From: Natronorubrum halalkaliphilum
GTDB taxonomy: Archaea; Halobacteriota; Halobacteria; Halobacteriales; Natrialbaceae
Direction: 5' to 3'
DNA length: 64,000 bases
Assembly (NCBI RefSeq): GCF_009834785.1
Contig: NZ_WUYX01000023.1
Location: forward strand, 1 to 64,000
The translations under genes and the position numbers were made by a program. Below are positions 35,463 through 43,613 of this stretch, one piece after another. The first letter of the stretch is position 1; each line of letters starts with the position of its first letter. The notes under the pieces were generated by a model. It worked only from the letters and a program-made list of their open reading frames with translations. It searched no databases and was not told the DNA's origin.

Positions 35463-35489
35463 GTGTTAGTTAGAGGTACTGGTGTACAA

Positions 35490-37154
35490 ATGCCGGATGA
35501 TATCACGACGCGGAGATCGGTGCTGAAGGGTGCAGGGGTTGCTGGAGTTACAGGACTTACCGTAAGCCTCGCTGGCTGTACTGGCGATGGAGATGATTCG
35601 GATGTTGAGGGTGCAGACGAGATAGCCGACGAAGTGCCGGAAATCCATCTCGTCGCACCGACGGCCGGAACGAATCCGTTCCGAAACGAACTCGCCTCGA
35701 TCGTCGCCGAAAACTGGGAAGAGATCGGTTTCGATGTTGACCTCGAGGAACTCCAGTTCGGTGCACACGTCGATCAGGTTGTCGTCCAGCAGGATTACGA
35801 CGCGTCGCTGCTCGGGTGGGGCGGAACGCCGGAGCGGATCGACCCCCACACGTTCATCTACGATATGCACCACTCCGACAACACGCAGGAGGGTGGCCGG
35901 AACACGCCGGGGTACGCGAACGACGAGTACGACGAACTGGCCGAGTTGCAGGTGACGCAGGTCGACGAAGACGAACGTCAACAGACCGTCTACGAGGCCC
36001 AGGAGATTATCGCCGAGGATCAGCCGCGTACGTACATCGCCAACGAGGGCGGGTACCATCCGTACGCAAGCGCCCGCGTCACCGACGTCGACCCGACGCT
36101 CGGTGAAGGGCTCAACTCGTTCTGGAACATGACGTCGGCGACTCCAACCGACGACGATACGGTTCGCTTTGGATATCCCTCCGAGATTATCTCGCTGAAT
36201 CCGATGCAGGATCTGGCGACGCCGGATCGCCAATTCGTCCGCCTCATTTACGATCAGTTGTACCGCATCGGCCCGGACGGTTTCCCACAGCCGTGGCTCG
36301 CCACGGACGATCCGGAGATCGAAGACGACGGTATGACCTACACGGTCGAGATCCGAGACGATCTCACCTTCCACGACGGCGAAGATCTCACCATCGACGA
36401 CGTCGAATTCACCTACAACCTGTACGCCGACTCGCCGACCTACAGCGGTCTCGTCGAAATCATCGACGAAATCGACACCTCGGGCAACGAGATCACGTTC
36501 CACCTCGAGGAACAGTATGCACCGTTCACGGCGAACGTTCTCGGACAGGTGTACATCTTCCCGGAACACATCTGGGGCGATGTCGGCCCGGACGAACTCG
36601 CGGACTTCGAGGACGAGAACTGGGTCGGAAGCGGTCCGTTCCAGTTCCGCGACTGGGAGCGCCAGGCCGAACTGCAACTCGAGGCGTTCGACGACCACTT
36701 CGAAACGCCAAACGCCGACAACTTCATCCGCATCCCGGGGGCCGACACCGCACAGCTGGTCAACGACCTCGAGGCCGGCCAGATCGACATGGTCGGCGCA
36801 GTCCCACAGCCGACGGCGGTCGACCGCGTCAGAGACGACGACGACCTCGACCTCGCCGAGTTCGAGGCTATCGGCTACGCGATGATCGAGTACAACATGC
36901 GCAACGAGCCACTCGACGACCGCCACATCCGGCGGGCGCTCTCCTACGGCGTGCCGAAAGAGGAGTACGTCGAGTTCATCCGCGACGGCATGGGAACGGT
37001 GACCCACACGACGATCTCCGAGCACAACGAGTTCTGGCACAACCCTGACGTCGAAGAGTTCTACGAGGACCTCGAGGCTGCACGACAGGAACTGGCCGAC
37101 GGCGGCTACGGATGGGACGGCGATGGGCGCCTTCACTACGGCGCCGACCAGTAG
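35490..37154 (+). CDS. dppA: Peptide ABC transporter substrate-binding lipoprotein, circularly permuted
   Basis: This 554-residue SBP family 5 protein has a Tat signal (TTRRSVLKGAG) and lipobox SLAGC, lipid on Cys30. Residues about 52-200 (NPFRNELASIVAENWEEIGF, DASLLGWGGTPERIDPHTF, QQTVYEAQEIIAEDQPRTYI) correspond to the C-terminal part of DppA-like proteins. Residues about 222-550 (VRFGYPSEIISLNPMQDLAT, YTVEIRDDLTFHDGEDLTID, GSGPFQFRDWERQ, LDDRHIRRALSYGVPKEEYV) correspond to the normal N-terminal and middle parts. The protein ends GYGWDGDGRLHYGADQ where a normal family member would enter the C-terminal segment. The order is thus circularly permuted. It should capture oligopeptides or similar solutes outside the cell and pass them to the permeases encoded next. 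Confidence 0.88.
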   Translation: MPDDITTRRSVLKGAGVAGVTGLTVSLAGCTGDGDDSDVEGADEIADEVPEIHLVAPTAGTNPFRNELASIVAENWEEIGFDVDLEELQFGAHVDQVVVQQDYDASLLGWGGTPERIDPHTFIYDMHHSDNTQEGGRNTPGYANDEYDELAELQVTQVDEDERQQTVYEAQEIIAEDQPRTYIANEGGYHPYASARVTDVDPTLGEGLNSFWNMTSATPTDDDTVRFGYPSEIISLNPMQDLATPDRQFVRLIYDQLYRIGPDGFPQPWLATDDPEIEDDGMTYTVEIRDDLTFHDGEDLTIDDVEFTYNLYADSPTYSGLVEIIDEIDTSGNEITFHLEEQYAPFTANVLGQVYIFPEHIWGDVGPDELADFEDENWVGSGPFQFRDWERQAELQLEAFDDHFETPNADNFIRIPGADTAQLVNDLEAGQIDMVGAVPQPTAVDRVRDDDDLDLAEFEAIGYAMIEYNMRNEPLDDRHIRRALSYGVPKEEYVEFIRDGMGTVTHTTISEHNEFWHNPDVEEFYEDLEAARQELADGGYGWDGDGRLHYGADQ

Positions 37155-37230: not shown

Positions 37231-38211
37231 ATGGGGCTAAGGGCGTACGTCGTCCGACGGGTGCTCCAGCTTATCGTCACCTTCTGGGCCTTCTTTACGA
37301 TTCTGTTCGTTCTGTTCCGGATGATGCCCGGTGATCCGACGTCGATGTTTATCATGGACGGCATGACGCCGGAACAACGCGAACAGCGGATTGCAGAGCT
37401 CGGATTGAACGAACCGCTGCACGTTCAGTACGTCGAGTACGCTCGACAACTGCTTCGCGGCGACTTCGGACAGTCGTTCATCTATCGCGACCCGGTTATC
37501 GACATCATCGCCGTTCGCTTTATGAACACGATCGTCCTGATGGGGACGGCGCTCCTCTTTGCCTACCTCATCGGGATCACGTTCGGTGCGATCATGGGCT
37601 GGTGGCGCGACTCGAGGTTCGAACGCGGCGGAATCATCGTCACGCTAGTCGCCCGCTCGTCGCCGGAGTTCTGGGTGGGGATCGTTCTCCTGTCGGTGTT
37701 CGTCTTCTGGCTCGGCTGGTTCCCCTCGAGTGGGATGCGCACGACCGGAGGCGAACTCGGCGGCAACTTCGCCGCCAGATACGGCTCGGTGGACTTCCTG
37801 CGACACCTGTTCCTCCCGGCGCTGACGGGAGCGATCGCCTATCTGGCGACGCCGACGCTGTTGATGCGCTCGACGATGCTCGACGTGCTCAACGCCGACT
37901 TCATCGAGATCAAGAAAGCGGAGGGGCTGCCCGAGCGGACGGTGTTGTTCAAACACGCCGCTCGGAATTCGGTGCTTCCGCTCGTGACGGTTATGGCGAT
38001 CGCTACCGGCTCCGCGATGGGTGGCTCGGTCGTCATCGAGACGGTTTTCAACTGGCCCGGAATGGGCCGAGAGATGGTGAATGCGGTAAACAACAACGAC
38101 TATCCGCTGGCGATGGCGGCGTTCTTCCTCATGGGATCGGTCGTGATCATCATGAACTTCGTCGCTGACCTCGCGTACGTATATCTCGATCCGAGGGTGG
38201 AATACGAATGA
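37231..38211 (+). CDS. dppB: Peptide ABC transporter permease, DppB type
   Basis: This 326-residue membrane protein has the DppB N terminus (YVVRRVLQLIVTFWAFFTIL, FRMMPGDPT) and six helices. The cytoplasmic EAA loop is DFIEIKKAEGLPERTVLFKH (about 222-241), which docks onto the ATPases. Its last helices end in VYLDPRVEYE, standard for the family. Its stop overlaps the start of the dppC gene by 4 bp (ATGA), so the operon is translationally coupled. Confidence 0.93.
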   Translation: MGLRAYVVRRVLQLIVTFWAFFTILFVLFRMMPGDPTSMFIMDGMTPEQREQRIAELGLNEPLHVQYVEYARQLLRGDFGQSFIYRDPVIDIIAVRFMNTIVLMGTALLFAYLIGITFGAIMGWWRDSRFERGGIIVTLVARSSPEFWVGIVLLSVFVFWLGWFPSSGMRTTGGELGGNFAARYGSVDFLRHLFLPALTGAIAYLATPTLLMRSTMLDVLNADFIEIKKAEGLPERTVLFKHAARNSVLPLVTVMAIATGSAMGGSVVIETVFNWPGMGREMVNAVNNNDYPLAMAAFFLMGSVVIIMNFVADLAYVYLDPRVEYE

Positions 38212-39143
38212 GCACCGAACGAACGTCTCCGACCGACAGGACAGAAACCGACGGCGGTACCCTCGAGTTCATCCGCTCGAAACTCGAGATCTTCGAGGGT
38301 GACAGGCTCGGCCAGATCGGACTGGGTATCCTGTGCTCGTTCATCCTTATCGGCATCTTCGCTCGGCCGTACACGATCGACTTCCTCAACCTGACGATTC
38401 CGGGGCTGGCACCCCACGATCCGGCTGAACGAGCTGTCGGCGGCCGACTCGAATCTCCGTCGGGCGCTCACCCGCTCGGGACGACCCACATGGGTCGAGA
38501 CGTGCTCTCGCAACTGATCGCCGGTACCCGCGTGACGCTGATCGTCGGCAGTCTCGCGGCGTTCATGGCCGTCTTCATCGGGACGAACGTTGGCCTTATC
38601 AGCGCCTACTTCGGCGGCTGGGTCGACGACGTGCTGATGCGGATTACTGATATCGTCTACGGTGTGCCGTTTCTCCCGTTCGCGATCGTTCTCGTGGCGA
38701 TTCTGGGCAGCAGCATCGTCAACATCATCGTCGCAATCGTGTTGATCCTGTGGCGATCGACGGCACGGGTGATCCGCGCGCAAGTATTGAGCCACAAACA
38801 GCGGCCATACGTCGAGAGCGCACAGGCCATCGGGGCTAGCCACACGCGAATCATGTACCGCCACATCCTGCCGAACGTGTTGCCACTTACGTTCCTGTAT
38901 GCGGCCTTCGCGGTCGCGTGGGCGGTCATCGCCGAGGCGAGTCTCTCGTTCCTCGGGTTCGGTGACCCGAACATGCTCTCGTGGGGAGAGATGATCTACA
39001 ACGTCTACACCGCAAACGCCATCCGCGAGGCCTGGTGGTGGGTCTTCCCACCTGGCATCTGCATCATGCTGTTCGTGATGTCGGTGTTCTTCATCGGCCG
39101 TACCCTCGAAAAAGAGGTTAATCCCGAACTCCAACATCAATAA
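38208..39143 (+). CDS. dppC: Peptide ABC transporter permease, DppC type
   Basis: This 311-residue permease has the long DppC N-terminal extension (about 1-40), helix 1, an extracellular loop with HPLGTTHMGRDVLSQLIAGT (about 86-105), and five further helices. The EAA loop is YVESAQAIGASHTRIMYRHI (about 203-222). SLSFLGFGDPNMLSWGEMIY is a typical late-helix stretch. It overlaps dppB by 4 bp and dppD by 1 bp. Confidence 0.93.
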   Translation: MSTERTSPTDRTETDGGTLEFIRSKLEIFEGDRLGQIGLGILCSFILIGIFARPYTIDFLNLTIPGLAPHDPAERAVGGRLESPSGAHPLGTTHMGRDVLSQLIAGTRVTLIVGSLAAFMAVFIGTNVGLISAYFGGWVDDVLMRITDIVYGVPFLPFAIVLVAILGSSIVNIIVAIVLILWRSTARVIRAQVLSHKQRPYVESAQAIGASHTRIMYRHILPNVLPLTFLYAAFAVAWAVIAEASLSFLGFGDPNMLSWGEMIYNVYTANAIREAWWWVFPPGICIMLFVMSVFFIGRTLEKEVNPELQHQ

Positions 39144-40216
39144 TGACGCTACTCGATATCAACGGACTGAAGACGTACTATCGGGCCGACAACGGGTGGG
39201 TCCGAGCAACGGACGACGTTTCGCTGTCGATTGATCGCGGCGAGACCGTCGGGTTGGTCGGTGAAAGTGGCAGTGGCAAGACGACGCTTGCGAAATCGAT
39301 CATTCGGCTGCTATCGGACAACGCCGAGATCGTCGACGGCTCGATTAATTTCGACGGCACTGAAGTGACCGAACTCTCCGACAAAGAACTCCGTAAACAG
39401 ATCCGCTGGTCGGAGATTTCGATGATCCCACAGAACGCGATGAACGGGTTCGACCCGGTCTACACCGTCGGTCAACAGATCGTTCAGGTGATCCGTCATC
39501 ACGAGGACGGCACGTCAAAGAAAGAGGCTCGAGAACGGGCCCGCTCGCTGTTCGATGAACTCGGGATCGAACCCGACCGTGTGGATGACTATCCCCATCA
39601 GTTCTCCGGGGGGATGGCCCAGCGTGCGATGATCGCGCTCGCACTCGCGCTCTCGCCGTCGCTCGTGCTCGCGGACGAGCCGACGACGGCACTCGACGTC
39701 GTGATCCAGGATCGCATTCTGGATACGATCAAAGAGATGCAAGAAGAGCTGAACAGCGCGATGATCATGATCACTCACGATATGTCGGTCGTCAGCGAAA
39801 CCTGCGACCGCATCGCCGTGGTCTACGGCGGCCGAATCGTCGAAATTGCGGACACGGAGACGATCATCACCAACCCGCGTCATCCGTATACGCTCGGCCT
39901 CCGGAACGCGTTCCCGGACATCAACGATGACGATCAGGAACTCATCTCCATTCCGGGAACGCCGCCGGAACTCGTCGATCCTGGCGAGGGCTGTCGGTTT
40001 GCTCCTCGCTGTCCGTTCGCCGAACAGGAGTGTTGGGAGGAGACACCCGAGGCCGAATCGTACGGCGATGGCCACGCGGTCGAATGCCACCGCGCCGACG
40101 AGATCGACCATTTGCAGGAAGAAGCCGGAAAGAAAGAAACGTGGACCGAACAAGATCTCGGTCGACCGGAAGACTCCCAATCGGATCAGCCCGAAGAGGT
40201 GATGCTCGATGACTGA
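39143..40216 (+). CDS. dppD: Peptide ABC transporter ATPase, DppD type
   Basis: This 357-residue ATPase has Walker A GESGSGKTTL (about 39-48), the Q-loop at SMIPQNAMNGFDPV, the signature SGGMAQR (about 154-160) and Walker B LVLADEPTTALD (about 173-184), followed by the His switch ITHDMS. The C-terminal oligopeptide-transporter motif GCRFAPRCPFAEQECW carries Cys residues that in some family members hold a metal or FeS cluster. It overlaps dppC and dppF, showing tight coupling. Confidence 0.93.
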   Translation: MTLLDINGLKTYYRADNGWVRATDDVSLSIDRGETVGLVGESGSGKTTLAKSIIRLLSDNAEIVDGSINFDGTEVTELSDKELRKQIRWSEISMIPQNAMNGFDPVYTVGQQIVQVIRHHEDGTSKKEARERARSLFDELGIEPDRVDDYPHQFSGGMAQRAMIALALALSPSLVLADEPTTALDVVIQDRILDTIKEMQEELNSAMIMITHDMSVVSETCDRIAVVYGGRIVEIADTETIITNPRHPYTLGLRNAFPDINDDDQELISIPGTPPELVDPGEGCRFAPRCPFAEQECWEETPEAESYGDGHAVECHRADEIDHLQEEAGKKETWTEQDLGRPEDSQSDQPEEVMLDD

Positions 40217-41537
40217 CGCGCTCAAAATGGGGTCACGCACCGACCCGAACGAATCCTACAAACTGAGAGTCGAAAACCTCGAGAAACACTTCCCCGTCAA
40301 CACCGGGATCATCTCGCGTATCTTGCGCGGCGAGAGCAACCAGGCGGTCAAGGCCGTCGACGGCGTCTCGCTGGGGATTCGCGAGGGCGAGGCGTTCGGC
40401 CTCGCCGGCGAGTCCGGCTGCGGAAAGACGACACTCGGCAAGAGCGCCATCAGACTACTCGAGCCGACGAACGGGGAGATCTACTTCGACGACGAAGAGA
40501 TAACCAGCGCAAGCGGCAGCAAACTGAACCAGTTCCGTCGGGAAGCCCAGATCATTCACCAGGATCCGTACAAGTCGCTCAATCCGCGATTCACGGTCTA
40601 CGAATGGGTCAAGGAGCCACTCGACGTTCACGATATCGGCACGGCCGAGGAGCGAGACGCGCGGGTGTACGAAACCATCGAACAGGCCGGACTGCAGCCG
40701 GCTCACGCCTACGCCCACGAGTATCCGAGCGAACTGAGCGGTGGCGAACGCCAGCGCGTCGGTATCGCCAGAGCGCTGGCGCTCGAGCCGTCGTTCTTGT
40801 TGGCCGACGAACCGGCGAGTATGCTCGACGTCTCGATCAGGGCGAGCATTCTCGACCTGTTCAAGCGTCTGCAGACGGAGTTGGGGCTGACGGCAGTGTA
40901 CATCAGCCACGACCTCTCCCTGCTCAAGCACATGTGCGATCGGATCGGGATCATGTACCTCGGCGAACTGGTCGAGGTCGGTCCGGCAGACCAGATCATC
41001 AACGATCCGAAACACCCCTACACGCAGGCGCTGGTCTCCTCGGTGCCGCGGATCGATCCGACCGAAGAGCGAGAGCGAATCGAACTCGTCGGCGAGGTCC
41101 CCGACCCCGTCGACGTCCCGAGCGGCTGTCGGTTCCACCCGCGCTGTCCGAAACTCGTCCAGCCCGAGGGGTACGACATGGAACAAACTCACTGGCGGGC
41201 GGTTGCGAACTTCCGTCACGACCTGTTGCAGGATGACGTCACCCTCATCGACGAAGCGGAGGCGGAGACGCCCGATGCGATCCGCGACGCCTACGACATC
41301 CCATCGCAGCTATCGGACGGCGACGCCGAACGCGTCCTCTCGGACGCGTTGCAGACGGTAACGGGTGGCGACCGCGAGGAGGCTCGAGCGCGACTTGAGA
41401 CCGAGTTCGCGACGCCGTGTGAGCGCGGCGAGATCGAGACCTATCAGGTGACGCCGGACCAGACGGCAAAGTGCGTCCGGTACGACGAAAGTTCGCGGTA
41501 CGATGCCGACGGCGGCGGCACCATCGAGGGCGACTAA
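40209..41537 (+). CDS. dppF: Peptide ABC transporter ATPase, DppF type, with C-terminal extension
   Basis: This 442-residue ATPase has Walker [14 protein letters not shown], signature [15 protein letters not shown], Walker [13 protein letters not shown] and the His switch YISHDLS. The usual end, [18 protein letters not shown], comes at about residues 302-319. A further 110 acidic residues follow, containing [19 protein letters not shown] and a [19 protein letters not shown] segment. Such extensions occur in some haloarchaeal DppF proteins; the two Cys could matter for metal binding. Its TAA overlaps the stop of the convergent Rieske gene by 4 bp. Confidence 0.92.
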
Positions 41538-43438
41538 CGCTCCGTCGCTGTTTCGTCGTTTTCGTGGATGGTTTCCCCGCGATTCAGCCGTTCGGCGATG
41601 GTAAACGTCTGTTCTGCCTCGCGGCGAGTCGGGAACTGTGCGGCCATGTAGCGAGCCGTCGCGATGAGCGGGACGCGACGCCGGGACTCGAGATCGACCG
41701 CCGACTCGGTGGGTTCGGCTCCCGAGTCACCGCCTCCGTTCATCGACTCGCCGACCGCAGTTGCCGATTCGCCGCTTTCGCTCGCACGCGCTTCGGCGAG
41801 ATCGAACTGTCGGAACGCCGCCTCGAGATTCTGGAGCGTGTGGAAGCCGGCGTCCTCGCGCAGTAGTCCGTGACCCAGCGTTCGCTTCAGCGCGTCGGGA
41901 TCGCCGCCGCAGTCGAGGAATTCGGTGACCAGTTGCCCGGCCTCGTCCACCTCGCCCTCGGTGTCGAACGTCTCCAGAACGTTCTCGAGGATCGACTCCG
42001 GATCGCGTCCGGTATCGTTGTCGCCGGGTTCGGGAATCGGCGCGGGCGGCGTGTTGAGGAACCGATCGAGGTAGACGTTGAGGGCGGCGTCGAAGACGCC
42101 TCGATAGAGTTCGACCGCTTCCGTCCGCCGCGTCGACTGGTGGACGGCGTTCGCGTATGTGAACGTGTGGTGGACGGTGTTCCAGTCGCTGAACTCGTTT
42201 GCGGTGCCGAACTGGGCGACGCGCGTAGCCGCGGCGTGGGTCACTTCGGCGGCGAGTGCCTCGCTCGTTGCCCCTTCGCGAACGGCGTCGGCGAGCGCGT
42301 CGACGATATCCTCGGGGTCGTCCGCGAGCAGGGTTTCCTGCAACTCGCCGGGCGGCGACCAGGAGTTCCCGGCGCCCTCGGCAGCGAGTTCCTCGAGGCC
42401 ACTCGTTTCCGTGACGTCGCCGCCGTAGACGTCCTCGAGCAGGACGACGAGATCGATCGGCTGTCGCCACGACGATCGTTCGTCGCTGCGACTGGCGGTC
42501 ACGAGCGGTTCGACGAGACTCGATACGGTTTCTTCGGCGTGGTCCCAACCCACGTGCTCGAGGATCTCGAAGGCCGTGTTCGCAAAGTCGAGAACGTGGC
42601 CGGTCGAGAGGTACGGGTGGTCGGTCGCGGCGGCGAACAGCAACTCCGCGACCTCGGCTTCCGAACGACCCGAGGCGATCGCGGTGCGGAGACAGCGCTC
42701 GGCCCCGTCGCGGTCGCGCACCTCGACACAGTCCCGGAACCACGATTTCAGCCGATCGAACGCGACGTCGTCCGTCGAGAACGACGGCTGCTCGAAGTTC
42801 GGCGGTTCGCCCGCACAGTCGTCGCCAACGTGGCGAACGCCGGTGTACAGCGCCCGTTTTCGGTCCTGTGGCTCGAGGTCGTCGATCACGTTCGCCAGAC
42901 AGCCCAGAATCGTGAGACCGGGCCCCCATCCCGACTCCCGGTACCGGGTGCCGAACGCGAGGGCCGTCGCCATCGGCTCTCGGTAGTCGACGCCGGCGTC
43001 AAGCAACCCGCCCGTCGATTTCGCGACGACGAGTCGCAGGTTCTCCTCGAGTCCCGTCTCGAGGCGGTCGGCCCAGTGCTCGGCGGGCGGCAACTCTCGG
43101 GTCGGGGACGGGTTCACGTGGACGGTGCCGTCCCGGATTTCGGTGGGATACGTCTGCACGTCGTCGGCCCACGGATCGAACGTGTCGCCACAGGAGAGTT
43201 CGAAGCGCGCGTGGTGCCAGTGACAGGTCAGGATGCCGTCGTCGACGGTTCCCTCGACCAGCGGAAACCCCATGTGTGGACAGCGGTTGTTCACGGCCCG
43301 GACCTCGCCCTCGTGGTAGAAGACGGCCAGCGGCGTGCCGTCGACGCTCGTTAACTCCCGTCCCGATTCCTCGAGGTCGGCGAGCGGGACGACCGGTCGA
43401 AATTCGCCTTCACGTTCGCTTTCGTCTGTCGTCGACAT
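41534..43438 (-). CDS. Rieske [2Fe-2S] domain protein with long helical C-terminal region
   Basis: This 634-residue protein has an N-terminal Rieske domain (about 12-105): CPHMGFPL and CHWHHARF supply the two Cys and two His ligands (C53, H55, C72, H75). The remaining 500 residues are mainly helical and soluble with repeated Asp-rich segments such as GWGPGLTILGCLANVIDDL and NEFSDWNTVHHTFTYANAVH. No oxygenase iron site is evident, so it is not a standard ring-hydroxylating enzyme. It may pass electrons to a large helical partner domain. ATG 43438 is preferred over ATG 43459, which adds seven residues. Confidence 0.8.
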   Translation of the reverse strand: MSTTDESEREGEFRPVVPLADLEESGRELTSVDGTPLAVFYHEGEVRAVNNRCPHMGFPLVEGTVDDGILTCHWHHARFELSCGDTFDPWADDVQTYPTEIRDGTVHVNPSPTRELPPAEHWADRLETGLEENLRLVVAKSTGGLLDAGVDYREPMATALAFGTRYRESGWGPGLTILGCLANVIDDLEPQDRKRALYTGVRHVGDDCAGEPPNFEQPSFSTDDVAFDRLKSWFRDCVEVRDRDGAERCLRTAIASGRSEAEVAELLFAAATDHPYLSTGHVLDFANTAFEILEHVGWDHAEETVSSLVEPLVTASRSDERSSWRQPIDLVVLLEDVYGGDVTETSGLEELAAEGAGNSWSPPGELQETLLADDPEDIVDALADAVREGATSEALAAEVTHAAATRVAQFGTANEFSDWNTVHHTFTYANAVHQSTRRTEAVELYRGVFDAALNVYLDRFLNTPPAPIPEPGDNDTGRDPESILENVLETFDTEGEVDEAGQLVTEFLDCGGDPDALKRTLGHGLLREDAGFHTLQNLEAAFRQFDLAEARASESGESATAVGESMNGGGDSGAEPTESAVDLESRRRVPLIATARYMAAQFPTRREAEQTFTIAERLNRGETIHENDETATER

Positions 43439-43613
43439 ACGCCAACTATTGTCAAACATACGTGTAAGCGTTCGCTGAACTCGATTATTGTAAAATCTAT
43501 AATATGTGTTCGAGAACGGCCCTCGACACTCCCATCGAATCCCATCGAGGGTTCGAGCGGACCACAGCCGTTCGGAGTGGCACGTTTTTGCCGTTCGCGA
43601 CGAAACGTCGGGT

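Follow-up and report, generated by a model that had tools for sequence, protein, structure and literature searches.

Evidence for a naturally circularly permuted SBP_bac_5 substrate-binding lipoprotein in a haloarchaeal DppABCDF-type operon

Introduction

Natural circular permutations are usually regarded as rare events of great age that relate distant proteins to each other. A gene at the head of a dpp operon in the window (the whole stretch of 64,000 nucleotides of Natronorubrum halalkaliphilum DNA analysed here) raises the question of whether the two parts of an SBP_bac_5 binding protein have exchanged places along the chain, and of whether such an exchange concerns this gene alone. The original prediction described a single gene, permuted and rebuilt around a new start, in an otherwise standard operon.

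The gene and its operon

The open reading frame at 35490–37154 (+) encodes an intact SBP_bac_5 protein of 554 residues with a Tat motif and a lipobox, typed by Pfam, by phmmer against structures and by AlphaFold; ATG at 35490 is a better fit for the start codon than the GTG upstream at 35463. The Tat signal peptide and the lipobox LAGC occupy residues 1–30 (35490–35579, +) at the new N terminus, where the RR pair and LAGC can be read directly (the match to TAT_signal is weak), so the claim that both stand at the true N terminus is borne out; RR, G29 and C30 are conserved in alignment A1.

Directly downstream, and on the same strand, lie the genes of a DppB/OppB-type permease (37231–38211; PF00528 and PF19300), a DppC/OppC-type permease (38208–39143; PF00528), a DppD/OppD-type ATPase (39143–40216; PF00005 and PF08352) and a DppF/OppF-type ATPase with a C-terminal extension (40209–41537; PF00005 and PF08352). 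The operon thus joins an exported binding protein, with signal and lipobox, to DppBCDF genes, and is standard in the way that had been predicted. The gene order SBP-B-C-D-F is conserved across haloarchaea, Clostridia, SAR324, Bacillaceae and Alphaproteobacteria, which points to the binding protein as a component of the importer. Convergent with dppF, on the minus strand at 41534–43459, there is a gene for a protein of 641 residues that opens with a Rieske domain and whose long C-terminal part has no Pfam match.

By analogy with its relatives, the product is most likely a lipid-anchored binding protein for a peptide or small amide that serves a DppABCDF importer; the ligand would be held between the lobes, as in the canonical relatives, and then handed to DppBC. 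None of the NCBIfam equivalog cut-offs, those for DppA, OppA and NikA included, is reached by the protein; the DppA equivalog NF043070 scores 85.2 bits against a curated cut-off of 1005, and the protein is therefore filed as SBP_bac_5 and not as DppA. The alphaproteobacterial and Halalkalicoccus operons adjoin genes for M20/M28 peptidases, hydantoinase/oxoprolinase or creatininase, neighbours that tentatively suggest peptides or cyclic amides as substrates; no catabolic neighbour gene was identified for the operon of the window. Two alphaproteobacterial plasmid operons (L217, 2137–19542; L218, 6903–19548) offer a substrate clue of this kind, with a permuted binding protein among M20/M28 peptidase and hydantoinase/oxoprolinase genes.

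Two segments in swapped order

The family profile PF00496 matches the protein with 224.1 bits (gathering cut-off 32.4), and the match is split into two stretches. In the protein search, profile positions 2–284 fall on residues 266–546 and the end of the profile lies upstream of them; in the genome-level search, positions 287–366 are found at 35610–35885 and positions 2–288 at 36285–37148. The collinear canonical order is not present, and since the stretches stand in swapped order the protein is filed as a permuted variant and not as a plain member of the family. Comparison with proteins of known structure gives the same picture: by phmmer, residues 275–548 match chain positions 74–353 of AppA (1xoc; 3e-32) and residues 60–184 match positions 368–487 (1e-6), and the same swap is seen against CcNikZ-II (8efz) and E. 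coli DppA (1dpp). The motifs and coordinates are accordingly those that had been claimed, with the C-terminal motifs first and the N-terminal ones later.

The chain can be divided into consecutive parts. Residues 45–188 (35622–36053, +) correspond to the canonical C-terminal segment, placed first (AppA 355–491 by structure, 368–487 by sequence). Residues 189–218 (36054–36143, +) comprise the canonical C-terminal tail and, after it, a short linker that leads into the canonical N terminus, and contain the conserved junction GEGLNSFW..P..D. Residues 219–554 (36144–37151, +) are the canonical N-terminal and middle part, placed last. The new C terminus, residues 538–554 (37101–37151, +), lies in the hairpin that follows the helix 528–537, at a point where canonical proteins continue, as placed by phmmer against structures, the comparison of cut sites and AlphaFold; the last residues are ...GYGWDGDGRLHYGADQ.

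Predicted structure

AlphaFold, given 22 window and database orthologues, predicts one confident two-lobed protein (pLDDT 86.9, pTM 0.84) in which low confidence is limited to residues 1–37. When the whole model is compared with AppA, residues 219–554 fall on 18–359 (Z 24.4, rmsd 4.9), and with NikZ on 1–330 (Z 23.6, rmsd 2.7); the structural aligner is sequential and places one part of a permuted chain at a time. Folded alone, residues 45–217 give a poor model (pLDDT 68), which indicates that the C segment is not an independent domain; within this model residues 45–188 find their best match in AppA 355–491 (Z 8.9, 26% identity), a match that counts as supporting evidence only, because the model is poor. 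Both aligned ranges meet at AppA ~355–359, as a circular permutation demands. The N-terminal part is not predicted to take a different fold, an outcome that would have told against the original prediction, and the whole is modelled as a single two-lobed binding protein of cluster C, on the strength of the pTM and of the complementary alignments to AppA.

With both segments identified by sequence, a confident model and structural alignments that complement each other, the binding protein is very probably a naturally circularly permuted cluster C (SBP_bac_5) substrate-binding lipoprotein of a DppABCDF-type ABC importer. It shares with DppA, OppA, AppA and NikA both segments, the two-lobed model, export by lipobox and Tat signal and the DppABCDF operon, and differs from them in the permuted order and in having its new termini in lobe 2.

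Distribution of the permuted form

Dozens of genomes, each assembled independently, show the same swapped order at 30–89% identity. All of the best 30 loci in relatives are permuted (30/30), a full-span match is present in at least 36 of 61 genomes, and the 143 fetched open reading frames divide into 98 permuted and 45 canonical. In the genome to which the window belongs, 5 of 12 SBP_bac_5 frames are permuted: the gene of the window on contig C39, two on C38, one on C44 and one on C13. An artefact of assembly or gene calling, in which a wrongly joined contig or a pair of truncated adjacent genes mimics a permuted gene, has nothing in its favour except the unusual order itself and has a negligible probability: the frame is intact, the signal and lipobox stand at the new N terminus, the predicted fold is confident, and the genome-level profile search found no further copy of either segment on the contig, so that the adjacent copy named as the other possible refutation of the original prediction is not there. 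The recurrence of the order in independent assemblies excludes such an artefact or a split gene, and the permuted homologues in many genomes likewise exclude a peculiarity of one species.

Homologues of the same order, which it had been proposed to look for, are spread across Halobacteria; the archaeal carriers among the named loci include Natronorubrum, Natrialba, Natronococcus and Halorubrum, a set biased to close relatives because the profile for the contig scan was built from a close alignment. Group III (L047–L050) is a second archaeal lineage, from family f21 of the same phylum, and one of its members (L047, 1406–3169, genome G239) is a permuted binding protein with a C-terminal PGF-type membrane anchor in place of the lipobox. 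Outside the archaea, the permuted form occurs in Oceanobacillus halotolerans, Mesobacillus, Clostridia MAGs and SAR324, and, among Alphaproteobacteria, in Nitratireductor, Ketogulonicigenium, Roseomonas and Neorhizobium. In Bacteria it is sparse, with at least 2 of 159 genomes in the Oceanobacillus family and at least 6 of 52 in the SAR324 phylum, counts that are minima, as scoring was confined to the top candidates.

The permuted form is thus a large old family (clade I), within which the topology is stable. What had been predicted holds in that the gene is permuted and carries its signal at the front, but the idea of a single rebuilt gene was too narrow, for the form also occurs in Bacteria and has recurred independently near the same site. 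Among the records listed, permuted proteins are annotated only with the generic name "ABC transporter substrate-binding protein"; annotation based on profiles hides topology.

Number of separate permutations

All cuts lie within one stretch of ~25 residues, a helix and hairpin of lobe 2, and their exact positions vary. In clade I the C-terminal end comes after the helix and the first strand of the hairpin (GYGWDGDGRLHY); in IIb it is just past the helix (EELLEEVVEDHDLN), with the restart at APFQLQLEVNAD; in III it is also after the helix; and in IIa it comes before the helix (TGTDYQDELAEEHLEVQ), which is carried N-terminally (AEELIAEGF).

Trees were calculated with both segments of each protein re-set in canonical order. 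On the tree of 80 rows (47 permuted and 33 canonical; these are quick trees with composition warnings), the permuted or canonical label changes four times, each change being forced by starred branches, and the N segment alone gives five changes, four of them forced. One ancient permutation could have given rise to all permuted SBP_bac_5 proteins if the canonical proteins that branch within them owe their place to tree error or to reversion, and it would agree with the position of every cut in the same helix-hairpin region and with AU tests that do not reject one clade for the 24 permuted IIb rows (p 0.094) or for IIa alone (p 0.073). Such a single origin is nonetheless highly improbable, since AU tests reject one clade of all permuted proteins (p 4.9e-5), of clades I and III (p 0.0035) and of IIa (L019–L022, L028, L157–L164, L166) with IIb (L038; p 3.9e-5), since the chain is opened ahead of the helix in IIa but beyond it in I, IIb and III, and since the DppB proteins of canonical and permuted members group by subfamily and not by topology. 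From these trees, permutation would have happened independently at least three times, and probably four, if the canonical order is ancestral, which is likely because that order is universal.

A further possibility, tentative and on balance doubtful, is that haloarchaeal SBP_bac_5 genes have a single hot spot at which topology changes repeatedly, from canonical to permuted and back. In the tree, a canonical IIb clade from f14 genomes (Halalkalicoccus included) is nested among permuted proteins, and the canonical L067, L153 and L154 are placed beside the permuted L166. If two-way switching were true, it would imply a recurrent route of duplication and deletion and a topology that is near-neutral for the transporter.

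The DppB encoded beside the permuted IIb binding protein of the genome studied is 81–85% identical to the DppB proteins beside canonical ones (L168, L171, L175, L207), and in IIa the DppB of canonical L148 is 60% identical to those of permuted L151 and L152. These permease identities are the strongest hint that a single importer can work with either topology.

Origin of the permuted order

Circular permutations have been explained by a model of duplication and fusion (PMC3320104), and the permuted binding protein probably arose in this way. In a tandem duplication followed by fusion, the canonical C terminus of one copy would have been linked to the spacer that precedes the first strand in the following copy, while the signal peptide would have been retained at the front, so that an internal deletion would also be needed. 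The permuted IIb junctions read ...QVMWMDEDAHPDDTDLSDLQEGGTLR..., and the canonical IIb relatives end in ...QTMWLERE and start, after the lipobox spacer, with ...DFGNLQAGGTLR or DFADLQEGGTLR; in the junctions the canonical C terminus runs into the spacer (DLQEGGTLR) that follows the lipobox in canonical proteins, as expected from duplication and fusion. No tandem-duplicated intermediate was found among the 143 frames, which counts against an origin by duplication.

Position of the lipid anchor

From the published domain description of DppA/OppA, we assign the canonical termini to domain I (lobe 1) and the new termini to domain III (lobe 2). Because of this difference, the lipid anchor would now hold lobe 2 instead of lobe 1.

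Naturally permuted binding proteins are already known. TpMglB-2 (Tp0684) of Treponema pallidum, assigned to "Cluster Bc / Type Ic", is a naturally circularly permuted binding lipoprotein of an ABC importer, with bacterial relatives, in which relocation of the anchor has been suggested to aid docking or export of tethered binding proteins (PMC4990184). The protein of the window resembles it as a permuted importer lipoprotein with bacterial relatives and is an analogue, not a member of Cluster Bc: TpMglB-2 belongs to the glucose/galactose-binding type I fold cluster and represents a separate event, and the sequence and fold matches of the window protein are to SBP_bac_5 and cluster C.

A similar advantage, by which tethering through the opposite lobe favours docking or export, might have led to selection of the permuted form; this proposal concerns retention and is compatible with an origin by duplication and fusion. 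The permutation recurred, according to the AU tests, most permuted members are Tat lipoproteins, and the PGF-type anchor of L047 has likewise been moved to lobe 2. Selection of this kind is still unlikely, as the alphaproteobacterial permuted proteins have cleavable signals and no lipobox, which weakens a hypothesis of the TpMglB-2 type, and as canonical haloarchaeal orthologues are also lipoproteins and serve permeases 81–85% identical, so that the new topology appears unnecessary.

What is unusual, then, is recurrence with live orthologous pairs. Unlike TpMglB-2, SBP_bac_5 shows several separate events, and canonical and permuted orthologues on one transporter, one event being recent enough for the permeases of such orthologues to remain 81–85% identical; the literature searched, which did not extend to subscription journals, yielded no report of a permuted SBP_bac_5 protein. 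Such pairs make the stepwise course of a permutation, and the importance of the anchored lobe for docking, directly testable.

Permuted genes in other settings

Permuted genes also occur away from the operon. On contig C38 of the same genome (L146, 9123–14592), two permuted binding proteins alternate with genes for PAP2-superfamily membrane proteins, in the order SBP-PAP2-SBP-PAP2 and with no ABC permease genes; a similar adjacent pair, also without ABC genes, is found at L147 (genome G021). In Mesobacillus, two permuted genes (L106, 5941–7629; L107, 5782–7533) have no adjacent dppBCDF, and at L107 the permuted gene is followed by a nitrite-reductase-like gene.
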